A stretch of DNA of 64,000 bases, from the NCBI GenBank assembly GCA_023957775.1, contig JAMLGR010000014.1, positions 1 through 64,000 of the forward strand, read 5' to 3'. Source of the DNA: Fimbriimonadaceae bacterium (GTDB lineage Bacteria > Armatimonadota > Fimbriimonadia > Fimbriimonadales > Fimbriimonadaceae). Positions 2,083-63,713 of the stretch are shown here, piece by piece; position 1 is the first letter of the stretch; each line of letters begins with the position of its first letter. A model generated the notes under the pieces. The model was not told where the DNA came from and searched no databases. It worked only from the letters and a program-made list of their open reading frames with translations. The translations under genes and the position numbers were made by a program.

Positions 2083-4014
<1,932 letters not shown>

Positions 4015-4055: not shown

Positions 4056-4076
4056 CTTGAGTCTATTACACTCAAC
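4056..4076 (-). promoter_or_regulatory. HAIR-type operator (HspR site) upstream of dnaK
   Basis: The + strand reads CTTGAGT, seven bases, ACTCAAC. The HspR-associated inverted repeat known from actinobacterial dnaK operons is CTTGAGT-N7-ACTCAAG, so 13 of 14 defined positions match with the exact spacing. The site lies about 60-80 bases before the dnaK ATG. On the minus strand its TTGAGT half could serve as a -35 element, with TACCTAT-like sequence downstream. HspR binding is inferred; no hspR gene is in the window. Confidence 0.75.
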
Positions 4077-4104: not shown

Positions 4105-4575
4105 TCAGGGTTGGCCCGCAACCCAGAGCGCTTCGTACGTTTCGGGGTCCTCGCAGAGTTCGTGGGCGACGGGACCGTCGAAGATCGCCTCCCAGCGTTC
4201 TTCCAGTTCGGCGTCGTCGCGAACGATGCGGTCGTAGCTTTCCGAGTAGAAGGGTGGGAAGGTCTCCCCCGAGCGTTTGGCGATGGCCTTGCCGGCTTTG
4301 GATTTGGCGCGTTCCACGATCGCGGCGAGTTCGTAGGGGCGGCCGTGTTTGTCTTCGCGAACGGTGAAGAGCAGTTCGGTCGTTTCCGGCAGCACGCCGA
4401 CGATGAGCAGATCCCACTTGTCCCCTTCGGGTTTGAGGAGTTCGCGCAGGAGGAGCAGGCGTTCCGCGGACTCGAGGGCGCGGCGGTGGCGAAAAGTGAC
4501 GTAGTAGCGGACGTCGTCCGCGCGCCAGTGGGGCAGCCGCCCCCTCCAGATGCTGAAGTTCTTGAATGGATCCAT
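4105..4575 (-). CDS. RAYT-like protein lacking the HUH histidines
   Basis: The 156-residue protein aligns by eye along its whole length with REP-associated tyrosine transposases (Y1/IS200-like superfamily). It has RGRLPHW near residue 12, YYVTFR at about 24-29, a beta-strand DLLIVGVLPETTELLFTV where the family has a MPNHVHLL-type strand, a helix AAIVERAKSKAGKAIAKR, and the C-terminal block SESYDRIVRDDAELEERW followed by GPVAHELCEDPETY. The catalytic tyrosine of ESYDR is kept. The two metal-binding histidines of the HUH motif are replaced (LPETTELL in place of MPNHVHLL), so single-strand cleavage activity is unlikely. A domesticated nucleic-acid-binding protein or a decaying copy are both possible. 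A heptamer array sits directly before its start. Confidence 0.65.
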   Translation of the reverse strand: MDPFKNFSIWRGRLPHWRADDVRYYVTFRHRRALESAERLLLLRELLKPEGDKWDLLIVGVLPETTELLFTVREDKHGRPYELAAIVERAKSKAGKAIAKRSGETFPPFYSESYDRIVRDDAELEERWEAIFDGPVAHELCEDPETYEALWVAGQP

Positions 4576-4650
4576 ATGGGAATCGGGAAACGGGAAACGG
4601 GAAACGGGAATCGGGAGTCGGGAGTCGGGAATCGGGATCGGGATCGGGTT
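4576..4650. repeat. Heptamer array, unit CGGGAAT
   Basis: About ten heptamers of the form CGGGAAT, CGGGAAA or CGGGAGT fill the gap between the RAYT-like gene and the P-II gene. The last units shrink to CGGGAT hexamers. A perfect nine-copy array of the same unit lies at 39495-39557. Confidence 0.9.
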
Positions 4651-4651
4651 C

Positions 4652-4993
4652 CTAAGACAGCGCGGCGTCGCCTCGTTCTCCGGTCCGGATTCTTACGGCA
4701 TCCATCACTTCGCTGACGAAGATCTTGCCATCGCCGATTTCTCCCGTTTGGGCGGCCCGGACGATGCTCTCGAGCGCGGTCTCGAGCTCCTCGTCGCGCA
4801 CGACGACCACGATCTTCATCTTGGGGAGCAGATTCACCGCGTAGGTGCTTCCCCGGTATTTGTCGGTGCGCCCGAACTGGCGGCCGTAGCCGCGCACCTG
4901 CTCGCAGCTCATCCCGGCGATCCCGGCATCCTCAAGCTCCTGCTTGACCGCCTCGAGACGGTTGACGCGGACGAAGGCCTCGACGCGTTTCAT
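4652..4993 (-). CDS. glnB: P-II family signal transduction protein
   Basis: This 113-residue protein matches the full P-II fold, a trimeric cytosolic sensor of ATP/ADP and 2-oxoglutarate. The T-loop has YRGSTY with Tyr51 at the canonical uridylylation position. The B-loop TGEIGDGKIFV and the C-loop RIRTGERG are intact. Gln39 of GRQ, a 2-oxoglutarate/Mg contact in the family, is present. Its ATG overlaps the stop codon of hslV by four bases (ATGA), so the two are translationally coupled. Neither amtB nor glnA is adjacent, which is unusual for glnB/glnK. The stop codon is followed after one base by a heptamer array. Confidence 0.93.
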   Translation of the reverse strand: MKRVEAFVRVNRLEAVKQELEDAGIAGMSCEQVRGYGRQFGRTDKYRGSTYAVNLLPKMKIVVVVRDEELETALESIVRAAQTGEIGDGKIFVSEVMDAVRIRTGERGDAALS

Positions 4994-5520
4994 AGCACCT
5001 CCACGGTCAACGAGTCATTGGTGAACACGCAGATCTCCGAGGCGATGGCGAGCGCCTCGCGCGCGATGGCCTCGGCATCCAGGTCGCTGTGCCGCAGCAT
5101 CGCCCGGGCCGCCGCGACCCCGTAGGCGCCGCCCGAGCCGATGCCGGCCACGCCGTCGTCGGGTTCGATGACGTTGCCATCGCCGCCGACGATGAGCATG
5201 CCCTCCCGGTCGGCGACGATCATCAGGGCGTTGAGCTGGCGCAGGATCTTGTCGGTGCGCCACTCCTTTGCGAACTCGACCGCGGCGCGTTTCAGGTTGC
5301 CTCCGAACGACTCGAGCTTGGCCTCGAAGCGGTCCTGCAGGGCCTGGGCGTCGGCGACGGAGCCGGCGAAGCCGCACAGCACGTTGCCCGAAGCGAGGCG
5401 CCGCACCTTCTTCGCGCGGTGTTTGAGGACGATGTTTTCGCCGAACGTAACCTGGCCGTCTCCGGCCAGCGCGGTTCGGCCGTCCCTGCGAATTCCAACC
5501 ACGGTGGTGGAGCGAATCAT
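4990..5520 (-). CDS. hslV: ATP-dependent protease subunit HslV
   Basis: The 176-residue protein is the proteolytic beta-type subunit of the HslUV (ClpYQ) protease. After a four-residue propeptide MIRS it reads TTVVGIRRDG, so the catalytic Thr would be residue 5 and would be exposed by autoprocessing, as in Thermotoga and Bacillus homologues. Further signatures are AGDGQVTFG, KKVRRL, CGFAGSVADA, WRTDKILR and GIGSGGAYG. I rejected a longer in-frame start because the homologous region begins at this ATG and a TACACT -10 element ends six bases before it. The ATPase partner hslU is not in the window. It shares a coupled operon with glnB. Confidence 0.95.
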   Translation of the reverse strand: MIRSTTVVGIRRDGRTALAGDGQVTFGENIVLKHRAKKVRRLASGNVLCGFAGSVADAQALQDRFEAKLESFGGNLKRAAVEFAKEWRTDKILRQLNALMIVADREGMLIVGGDGNVIEPDDGVAGIGSGGAYGVAAARAMLRHSDLDAEAIAREALAIASEICVFTNDSLTVEVL

Positions 5521-5526
5521 GCGCGA

Positions 5527-5532
5527 AGTGTA
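5527..5532 (-). promoter_or_regulatory. -10 element of hslV, leaderless type
   Basis: TACACT on the minus strand ends exactly six bases before the hslV ATG, which makes the A of ATG the expected first transcribed base. Confidence 0.5.
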
Positions 5533-5591
5533 CTGTCCGCCGGCAGCGGTTGGCATCATGGGACCCTGCTGGCTCGTCCTTGGAAGAAGGG

Positions 5592-6851
5592 ATGGGTTCC
5601 AACACGTTCGGATGGAAGGCTGCGGCCGTGGGTGCGCCGTTGCTTCTGGTCGCCGCGGCGTTGCTCTCGTGGAGCGGTTCGGTGGCGATCCGTGCCGAAT
5701 GGATGCTGCTTGGCGGAGCCGCCGTGCTCGCGCTCGCCACTTCTCTGATCTTCCGGGAGTGGCGTCAGGTCGAGTTGGATCGCCGCGAGGATGCGTGGCG
5801 GCTCGAGCTCTTGGAGTTGGAGTCCACGCGCCAGCGGGAGGCCGTGGATGCACTCGCGGACGGGCTCGAGGTGGCGATTCTGATCTGCGGGGCCAAAACG
5901 CAGATCCTCTACGCGAACCGCCGCGCTCGGGAGCTGTTCGGCTTTGACGATCCGCGAGGGCGCCCCATCGTGGCGGTCACCCTCTCGTACGAGTTGGAGA
6001 AGCTCGTGCTTGGCGCCGAGGAGACGGGCGAACCCCAGTCGGCCGAGCTCACGTTCTCCTATCCCGAAGCGAGGGTGGCCCGGGTCAAGGCGTGGCTCGC
6101 GCCCGACGGCCGCGCGCTGGTGACGATCATCGACCTTACGGCGCTTCGGCACTTGGAGCGCGTTCGGCAGGACTTCGTGGCCAACGTGTCCCACGAGCTG
6201 AGGACTCCGCTCAGCGTCATCCGGGCGATGGCCGAGACCCTTCTCGAGGACCCCGAGGCCGACGAGGCGCTCCACGAAACGTATTTGGCGAAGATCGTAG
6301 GGGAGGTCGACCGCCTGTCGCTGATCGCGAACGACCTGCTGATCCTCGGCGCCGCGGAGTCCAACCCCGTCCGCAAGCAGGCGTGCGACGTGGCGGACGT
6401 GTTCCGGACGTCGCTCGGCCAACTGGAGCGCAAAGCGCGCGAGAAGGGACTCGAAGTCGCCTACAAGGGGCCGGACCATTGCGTGATCCCCGCGAACGCT
6501 ACGCAGATCTCCCAGGTTGCGACCAACCTCATCGACAACGCGATCAACTACACGTCGCAGGGATCGGTGACCGTTGCGTTGCAGCGTCGGGAGAAGGACG
6601 TGCTGATCACGGTTGCGGACACGGGCATCGGCATCGCCTCCGAGCACCTCCCCCGGCTCTGGGAGCGGTTCTACCGGATCGACAAGGCCCGTTCCCGGTC
6701 CACCGGAGGCACCGGACTCGGCCTGAGCATCGTCAAGCACATCGTCGAAGTGCACGGGGGCACGGTCTCCGTCCGTTCCGCGCTCAACGAGGGCTCGACC
6801 TTCGAAGTCACGTTGCCGGTTGGGGACGAGGAAGCCACCCCCGAGGTGTAG
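5592..6851 (+). CDS. PhoR-type sensor histidine kinase
   Basis: The 419-residue protein has two N-terminal membrane helices (about 11-28 and 36-54), a short coiled linker, a PAS-like domain (about 88-180), a HisKA domain with His201 in NVSHELRTPLSVI, and a HATPase domain with N box NLIDNAINYTSQG, G1 box DTGIGI, WERFYR and G2 [14 protein letters not shown]. This is the layout of PhoR/ResE-like kinases. No response regulator gene is adjacent, so it is an orphan here. I chose the ATG at 5592 because GGAAGAAGGG precedes it immediately; a TTG at 5550 is an in-frame alternative. It diverges from hslV. Confidence 0.9.
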   Translation: MGSNTFGWKAAAVGAPLLLVAAALLSWSGSVAIRAEWMLLGGAAVLALATSLIFREWRQVELDRREDAWRLELLELESTRQREAVDALADGLEVAILICGAKTQILYANRRARELFGFDDPRGRPIVAVTLSYELEKLVLGAEETGEPQSAELTFSYPEARVARVKAWLAPDGRALVTIIDLTALRHLERVRQDFVANVSHELRTPLSVIRAMAETLLEDPEADEALHETYLAKIVGEVDRLSLIANDLLILGAAESNPVRKQACDVADVFRTSLGQLERKAREKGLEVAYKGPDHCVIPANATQISQVATNLIDNAINYTSQGSVTVALQRREKDVLITVADTGIGIASEHLPRLWERFYRIDKARSRSTGGTGLGLSIVKHIVEVHGGTVSVRSALNEGSTFEVTLPVGDEEATPEV

Positions 6852-6855
6852 AAGG

Positions 6856-7003
6856 TCTCACGCAAAGGACGCAAAGGGCGCAATGGGGGAGTCTCGAAGG
6901 CCCAAGGCCTAAGGCCAACGTAGTCTCACGCAAAGGACGCAAAGGGCGCAATGGGGGAGTCTCGAAGGCCCAAGGCCCAAGGCCCAAGGCCTAAGGACTA
7001 AGG
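6856..7003. repeat. Duplicated composite of family A repeat plus GGCCCAA heptamers
   Basis: A block of about 54 bases is present twice without mismatch, beginning at 6856 and at 6924. Each copy consists of one family A unit (TCTCACGC onward) followed by GAGTCTCGAA and a short run of AAGGCCC heptamers. The two units are thus duplicated as one piece. The last heptamers run into the stop codon of the convergent GHL10 gene at 6991-6993. Confidence 0.88.
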
Positions 7004-9542: not shown

Positions 9543-9568
9543 GCACGCCCTTCCAGCGGGCGTGGCAC
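9543..9568. repeat. REP-like palindrome, copy 1
   Basis: A 26-bp imperfect palindrome with arms CACGCCC and GGGCGTG around TTCCAGC. It is one base different in the loop from the copies at 18502 and 59851. It lies between galE and the ferritin-like gene, which converge. A second GC hairpin, GGGGGTGCCCCC, follows at about 9573-9584 and may help termination. Confidence 0.8.
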
Positions 9569-11590: not shown

Positions 11591-11680
11591 TTCACGCGCA
11601 CGCAAGGAACGCAAAGGGCGCACGGGTTTCACGCAGAGGCGCTGAGGGGTTTCACGCAAGGAACGCAAAGAGCGCACGGG
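11591..11680. repeat. Three family A direct repeats
   Basis: Copies begin at about 11591, 11628 and 11651 with TTTCACGC and continue with GGAACGCAAAGGGCGCA-type sequence. They lie between tRNA-Leu and the cutC promoter. Confidence 0.82.
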
Positions 11681-31565: not shown

Positions 31566-33525
<1,960 letters not shown>

Positions 33526-39494: not shown

Positions 39495-39557
39495 CGGGAA
39501 TCGGGAATCGGGAATCGGGAATCGGGAATCGGGAATCGGGAATCGGGAATCGGGAAT
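39495..39557. repeat. Perfect nine-copy heptamer array CGGGAAT
   Basis: Nine uninterrupted copies of CGGGAAT without mismatch. The perfection suggests recent expansion or active slippage, compared with the degenerate array of the same unit at 4576-4650. Confidence 0.97.
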
Positions 39558-39601
39558 CGCTCTTGAGTGCTCCATCGTCCTAACCCTCACGGAGGTGGAC
39601 G

Positions 39602-47611: not shown

Positions 47612-47657
47612 TGGTTGTTGGGCCTTGGGCCTTGGGTCTTGGTCCTTTGTCCTTGGG
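47612..47657. repeat. Heptamer array, unit TTGGGCC
   Basis: About six units (TTGGGCC, TTGGGCC, TTGGGTC, TTGGTCC, TTTGTCC, TTGGGGG) fill the gap between convergent stop codons. The unit is the reverse complement of the GGCCCAA heptamer at 214-342. Confidence 0.85.
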
Positions 47658-57368: not shown

Positions 57369-57422
57369 GGGTAGGGTCCTCGCATCGAAAACGGGCTCGA
57401 CGCAAACGGGGATTATACCTTG

Positions 57423-57550
57423 TGTGGGTGTGCGGTGTGGGGTTTGGGGTGTGCGGTGTGGGGTTTGGGGTGTGCGGTGTGGGGTGTGGGGTTTGGGGTG
57501 TGCGGTGTGGGGTGTGGGGTTTGGGGTGTGCGGTGTGGGGTTTGGGGCGT
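57423..57550. repeat. Heptamer array, units GTGTGGG, GTTTGGG and GTGTGCG
   Basis: About 17 heptamers alternate in a higher-order order, roughly GTGTGCG-GTGTGGG-GTTTGGG repeated, with some doubled GTGTGGG units. The array occupies the gap between the divergent 606-residue gene and the prepilin-type gene, close to both starts. Confidence 0.92.
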
Positions 57551-57575
57551 GGCAACCTTCGGGGGTTGGCTTGCG

Positions 57576-59724: not shown

Positions 59725-59797
59725 CTGGGGGGCTGCACGATGCCGATGGGAGTCCGGCGATTCAGAGACAGTCGCAAACTGCAGTGAAGGGCTCCGG

Positions 59798-59822
59798 GTG
59801 CCACGCCCGCTGGACGGGCGTG
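59798..59822. repeat. REP-like palindrome, copy 4
   Basis: A 25-bp palindrome identical to the copy at 10801. It is the exact reverse complement of copy 5, 28 bases downstream, so the two form a pair like a bacterial interspersed mosaic element. Confidence 0.92.
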
Positions 59823-59850
59823 CGGGGGCTTTCAGCTACAACCTTGAACT

Positions 59851-59875
59851 CACGCCCGTCCAGCGGGCGTGGCAC
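59851..59875. repeat. REP-like palindrome, copy 5
   Basis: The exact reverse complement of copy 4. The arms CACGCCC and GGGCGTG flank GTCCAGC. The transcript of the pair could form one long 25-bp stem. Confidence 0.92.
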
Positions 59876-60037
59876 CCAGGGTTTTGCGACAGTCCCTTCA
59901 TCGACGCTTTCGGTGCGTCCGGCCAGGCCGCCGTGCATGCGGGGCGCCAAACGGCCCGGTTCGCCGATGAATCCGCGCACTCCCAGAGCCTCGGCGTTCC
60001 AACTTGTGCTTGAACCGGGGGGGGGGCGTCACTCGCG

Positions 60038-61750: not shown

Positions 61751-63713
<1,963 letters not shown>

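Follow-up and report, generated by a model that had tools for sequence, protein, structure and literature searches.

Here, we describe a gene in a 64,000-nucleotide stretch of DNA (the window) whose product derives from a REP-associated tyrosine transposase (RAYT), has lost its catalytic residues, and has become a core protein of one bacterial family. The gene is single copy, its orthologues form one clade confined to one family, and they are under purifying selection; these are the marks of a domesticated transposase gene. We consider it probable that the protein, as a domesticated and nuclease-dead RAYT, acts as a small noncatalytic regulator that binds nucleic acid.

4105–4575, minus strand: RAYT-derived, predicted catalytically dead core protein of 156 amino acids (open reading frame, NCBIfam profile, orthologues, model, and alignment)

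The minus-strand reading frame runs from ATG to stop with no frameshifts. The NCBIfam profile NF047646 (REP_Tyr_transpos) matched residues 26 to 148 of the 156-amino-acid protein (E = 6.5e-6) as well as 53 of 64 orthologues, which bears out the resemblance to RAYTs proposed in the original prediction. The score of 26 bits lies below the curated cutoff of 80; the protein is a remote, full-length relative of RAYTs and TnpA-REP and not a member of the NF047646 family. A Pfam search with the protein gave nothing significant, and a PDB search with the single sequence returned noise only. When the PDB was searched with a profile, the best match was 4ER8 (E = 0.042), the structure of Escherichia coli TnpA-REP with a bound REP hairpin.

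The same structure was the closest to an AlphaFold model built from 64 orthologues (mean pLDDT, 88.7; below 50 for residues 1 to 17), with a Foldseek E value of 1.2e-6, a VIA Z score of 14.0, and a root mean square deviation of 2.8 Å over 130 residues. The next-best structure was IS608 TnpA (Z, 10.8). The comparison with TnpA-REP had been proposed as a check on the original prediction, and on this model, the protein has the Y1 HUH fold. Similarity to Thg1 and ribosomal protein S6 (Z, 6 to 9) was read as a common fold arrangement and not as kinship.

An orthologue was found in 80 of the 85 genomes of the host family, covering 32 of 32 genera. The five genomes without a match are all 68 to 89% complete, and the gene is present as a single copy in all 70 genomes that are at least 90% complete. 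It has been kept in two genomes of 1.5 Mb (G059 and G060). Other matches within the family scored far lower, and those examined were HUH-bearing RAYTs. When 291 genomes of the phylum were searched with a profile, all matches outside the family were weaker, the strongest examined again being HUH-bearing RAYTs; no orthologue was found in sister families, and the viral contigs, plasmids, and phages searched gave zero matches. A scan of wider genome contigs for exact peptide patterns, which says little on other phyla, found one relative with 69% identity. In a tree whose comparison set comprised RAYTs of this phylum and E. coli only, the orthologues formed one clade apart from 26 HUH-bearing RAYTs and TnpA-REP (support, 100/98). 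The orthologues are under strong purifying selection, with dN/dS values of 0.02 to 0.19 (NG86; orthologue pairs with measurable dS) and open frames at all loci examined, spanning 32 genera. A search of relatives had also been suggested at the outset; it found purifying selection, zero frameshifts, and a nonrandom substitution at the HUH site.

In TnpA-REP, the metal ligands are the two histidines of the HuH motif and N119, and the nucleophile is the tyrosine of the Y---NP motif (PMC6006769). The equivalent positions were located by aligning 76 orthologues with 26 RAYTs (mostly from elsewhere in the phylum and some from the host family) and with TnpA-REP of E. coli; the TnpA-REP sequence used agrees with that of the PDB chain from residue 18 to residue 134.

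4372–4389, minus strand: former HUH motif, residues 63 to 68 (P-E-T-T-E-L), from the alignment
4174–4188, minus strand: former Y---NP catalytic helix, residues 130 to 134 (AIFDG), from the alignment

As originally predicted, LPETTE has replaced the MPNHVH-type motif and both metal ligands are gone; no orthologue has HxH (0/76). Single histidines occur at the first position in one orthologue and at the second in one (L044 and L078), and both together in none. The catalytic tyrosine and the asparagine ligand are lost besides (0/76 each): Y115 of E. coli TnpA-REP aligns with A130, and N119 aligns with G134. The HUH-bearing RAYTs used for comparison keep the first histidine (26/26), the second histidine (25/26), the tyrosine (26/26), and the asparagine (26/26). 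By the alignment, the orthologues have lost the residues at all four catalytic positions, and the protein should not manage the nicking and strand transfer performed by RAYTs. The old HUH site is not drifting freely. It reads x-[TS]-[ED], with T or S in the middle in all 76 orthologues and E or D at the second-histidine position in 69 of 76; the first-histidine position is variable, with 12 residue types.

4216–4242, minus strand: ESYDRIVRD block, residues 112 to 120, strand beta4, from the alignment
4507–4566, minus strand: N-terminal segment, residues 4 to 23 (FKNFSIWRGRLPHWRADDVR), candidate binding interface, from entropy and the model

The ESYDRIVRD block had been taken for the tyrosine block of a RAYT. 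The block is indeed present, but its tyrosine is not the catalytic one, whose place is taken by A130. It aligns with residues 97 to 105 of E. coli TnpA-REP, which include the guide-contact positions 100 and 104, and E112, I117, and R119 are invariant. Among the TnpA-REP residues that contact the GTAG guide are Q95, D100, and R104 (PMC8266576; position 100 is Glu in the PDB chain sequence). Their equivalents are Y110, D115 (75/76 orthologues), and R119 (76/76).

Residues 4 to 23 are the most conserved stretch of the orthologues, although the N-terminal 17 residues have low confidence in the monomer model. By column entropy, in a comparison influenced by the smaller size and greater divergence of the RAYT sample, residues 4 to 22 stand at 0.70 in the orthologues versus 1.94 in HUH-bearing RAYTs; by mean column entropy, the HUH strand (1.61 versus 1.12) and the tyrosine helix (2.11 versus 1.98) are relaxed, and strand beta1 (0.89 versus 1.48), helix alpha3 (1.31 versus 1.89), and the loop/beta4 region (0.83 versus 1.65) are tightened. 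The tightened regions coincide in part with the REP DNA contact regions reported for E. coli TnpA-REP, namely, beta1, the surroundings of beta4, and alpha3 (PMC8266576). Residues L14-P15-H16-W17, K91, E112, D115, R116, I117, and R119 are common to orthologues and RAYTs, and N6, F7, W10, G12, R18, A19, H30, E82, E88, and E104 are conserved in the orthologues only. Constraint has thus moved away from catalytic elements and toward putative contact elements (strand 1, the ESYDRI(I/V)RD block, and the N-terminal LPHWRAD segment), a pattern with which retained binding of a hairpin or other nucleic acid would plausibly fit.

Since the catalytic residues are lost and the gene is universally retained under strong purifying selection, a function other than DNA cutting is indicated. 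We propose that the gene descends from a single capture of a TnpA-REP derivative at the stem of the host family (most probably Fimbriimonadaceae, Armatimonadota), followed by loss of both histidines, the tyrosine nucleophile, and the asparagine ligand and by retention as a catalytically dead, single-copy core gene. Strand 1, helix alpha3, and strand beta4 of the inherited fold, together with the hyperconserved N-terminal arm, would recognize a conserved target, presumably a single-stranded or hairpin nucleic acid. In full, in this scheme an HUH/Y1 transposase turned once and early into a universal, dead, nucleic-acid-binding core regulator whose conserved target is a hairpin or single strand and which may be linked to P-II signaling; we hold it with moderate confidence. 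Several features argue against nucleic-acid binding. The stem-contact residue K82 of TnpA-REP aligns with E88, which is Glu in 74 of 76 orthologues, and Q95 has become Y110. Compared with RAYTs, the alpha3 region has no extra positive charge and is a little less basic (net charge, +2.3 versus +3.4). In addition, no candidate target emerged: the gene flanks of ten groups of orthologues were aligned, and among the alignments listed neither a conserved hairpin nor any conservation outside coding sequence was found; no hairpin family was common to four sampled host-family genomes (200 kb each).

The neighboring genes, named from sequence, may point to another role.

4652–4993, minus strand: P-II signaling protein (GlnB-like) gene, upstream
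4990–5853 (predicted start), minus strand: hslV-like protease gene, upstream of glnB
2083–3996, minus strand: dnaK, downstream

The minus-strand order is hslV, glnB (P-II), the 156-amino-acid gene, and dnaK. Of the 76 loci, 41 (16 of 32 genera) have a glnB homologue upstream on the strand of the orthologue, and 20 (about 14 genera, including the most divergent lineage) have dnaK nearby; both counts are lower bounds, as flanks of 1.5 to 4 kb were available and 29 loci had only 1.5 kb. In many of the loci with glnB, the glnB stop abuts or overlaps the start of the RAYT-like gene. In sister families, glnB is found in another setting. The Y1 fold may accordingly have been reused as a protein-interaction module, such as a partner or effector of P-II, without any binding of nucleic acid, an alternative that we regard as doubtful. 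It would suit the frequent glnB linkage, the Glu at the stem-contact lysine position, and an N-terminus that is the most conserved segment and yet unstructured in the monomer model, as a docking motif would be. However, the other 35 loci have no glnB homologue within their flanks, so linkage is not obligatory, and the beta4 positions that correspond to guide contacts are invariant. An inverted repeat, CTTGAGT-N7-ACTCAAC, occurs at 4056–4076, upstream of dnaK. It is one base off the HspR (HAIR) consensus, and with such a repeat in the gap, dnaK is presumably under separate control.

A second alternative, which we consider improbable, is a new enzyme, in which x-[TS]-[ED] at the old HUH site would form an active site with H16, H30, E82, or E112. 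The replacement of the HUH motif is nonrandom, and the polar residues H30, E82, E88, and E104 are conserved solely in this family. Against this, the first-histidine position is free to vary, and no enzyme family in Pfam or NCBIfam was matched.

A role tied to REP sequences has to be weighed against the following palindromes.

59796–59877, no strand: inverted REP doublet (REPIN-like), from a 173-copy species-specific REP family (palindrome search)

The five REP-like palindromes originally reported for the window are real: CACGCCC-N7-GGGCGTG occurs in exact copies at 9544, 10805, 18503, 59802, and 59851. With up to two mismatches allowed, six palindromes were found, a number reached in 0 of 100 shuffles. 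The doublet is inverted, with 27-nucleotide arms that are 100% complementary, and the REP copies listed are preceded by GGGTGC or AGGTGC. By pattern searches, on which the genome-wide counts rest, the REP/REPIN family GGGTGCCACGCCCG-N5-CGGGCGTG has 173 perfect palindromes in the source genome, a species-specific expansion, versus 0 for a reversed control pattern; the other 84 genomes of the host family have 0 to 1 copy each of the window palindrome.

The REP family is genuine, and the source genome holds one RAYT over the family cutoff. Both facts would agree with a REP-binding role in which the protein masks these REP/REPIN palindromes or regulates them, a reading that we consider very unlikely. 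Binding of this REP family can hardly be what has kept the protein, because the REP family occurs in one genome and the protein occurs in 80 of 85. The proposed connection between the protein and the window REPs is likewise not supported, as nearly all of the genomes with 0 to 1 copy carry the protein. Two genomes without a RAYT match at an E value of 1e-10 (G046 and G064) both keep the orthologue, and no repeated hairpin family was found in 200 kb of each. The sole RAYT of the source genome over the NF047646 cutoff (L088; G000:C5:75141–75533) has NHYH at the HUH site. Although no REPs above chance were found within 4 kb of it, it is the likelier owner of the source-genome REPs than the 156-amino-acid protein.

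The weakest alternative, that of a decaying transposase or pseudogene, would fit the loss of catalytic residues taken alone and has almost no probability left, being ruled out by the selection and distribution data: the frames are open over 32 genera, the gene is single copy, dN/dS is far below 1, and invariant residues exist outside the active site. The original preference for domestication over decay is thereby upheld.

Accounts of RAYTs treat them as domesticated transposases whose HUH/Tyr core is intact. RAYT domestication itself is already known. The protein shares with TnpA-REP of E. coli (PDB 4ER8), a class 2 Y1 HuH enzyme, the Y1 fold described above, and with the RAYTs of the phylum the segments LPHW and ES(Y/F)D(R/H)I(I/V)R. 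It differs from them in the absence of the HUH motif, catalytic tyrosine, and asparagine ligand and in a new conserved N-terminus; moreover, RAYTs are patchy in distribution, whereas this gene is universal in one family and is not associated with a REP family common to its genomes. The TnpA proteins of IS200/IS605 elements (IS608 and ISDra2) also have the Y1 fold (Z, 9 to 11). In contrast to these, the gene has no transposon, encodes no HUH motif or catalytic tyrosine, and is found solely on the chromosomes of one family.

A conceptual likeness exists with TldR proteins, which originated from a transposon nuclease and lost nuclease activity. In both cases, a transposon-encoded nuclease would have lost catalysis and become a regulator, although TldR proteins have a guide RNA and defined targets, and the fold and mechanism of the 156-amino-acid protein are unrelated to theirs. 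TldRs are described as TnpB-derived RNA-guided transcription factors (PMC13418256). If the proposed reading is correct, the family would be the Y1 counterpart of nuclease-dead TnpB.

The main phylogenomic survey of RAYTs kept 722 of 924 sequences and set aside those without the motifs as probably nonfunctional (PMC6006769). Our literature search, which did not cover Bertels et al. 2017, found no published conserved HUH-less RAYT family. The present family shows that a RAYT derivative may lack the HUH motif and yet be a strongly selected core gene. As a clean system, it could reveal what hosts gain from RAYTs other than the movement of REPs, and cross-linking in a cultured organism could identify the target of this small protein.

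Other repeats were observed in the window. Six tandem arrays of 7-base units lie at 216–337, 4578–4648 (between glnB and the 156-amino-acid gene), 6965–6996, 39495–39559, 47618–47657, and 57421–57552, and their units differ (CCCAAGG, GGGAATC, CGGGAAT, TTGGGCC, and TGTGGGG). Dispersed repeats of the CACGCAAAGGACGCAAAGGGCGCAATGG type, some of them in tandem, occur at 32–203, 6855–6984, and 11599–11680. Positions 31939–33447 and 62145–63653, 30,206 bases apart, are 73 to 76% identical and represent a diverged duplication.
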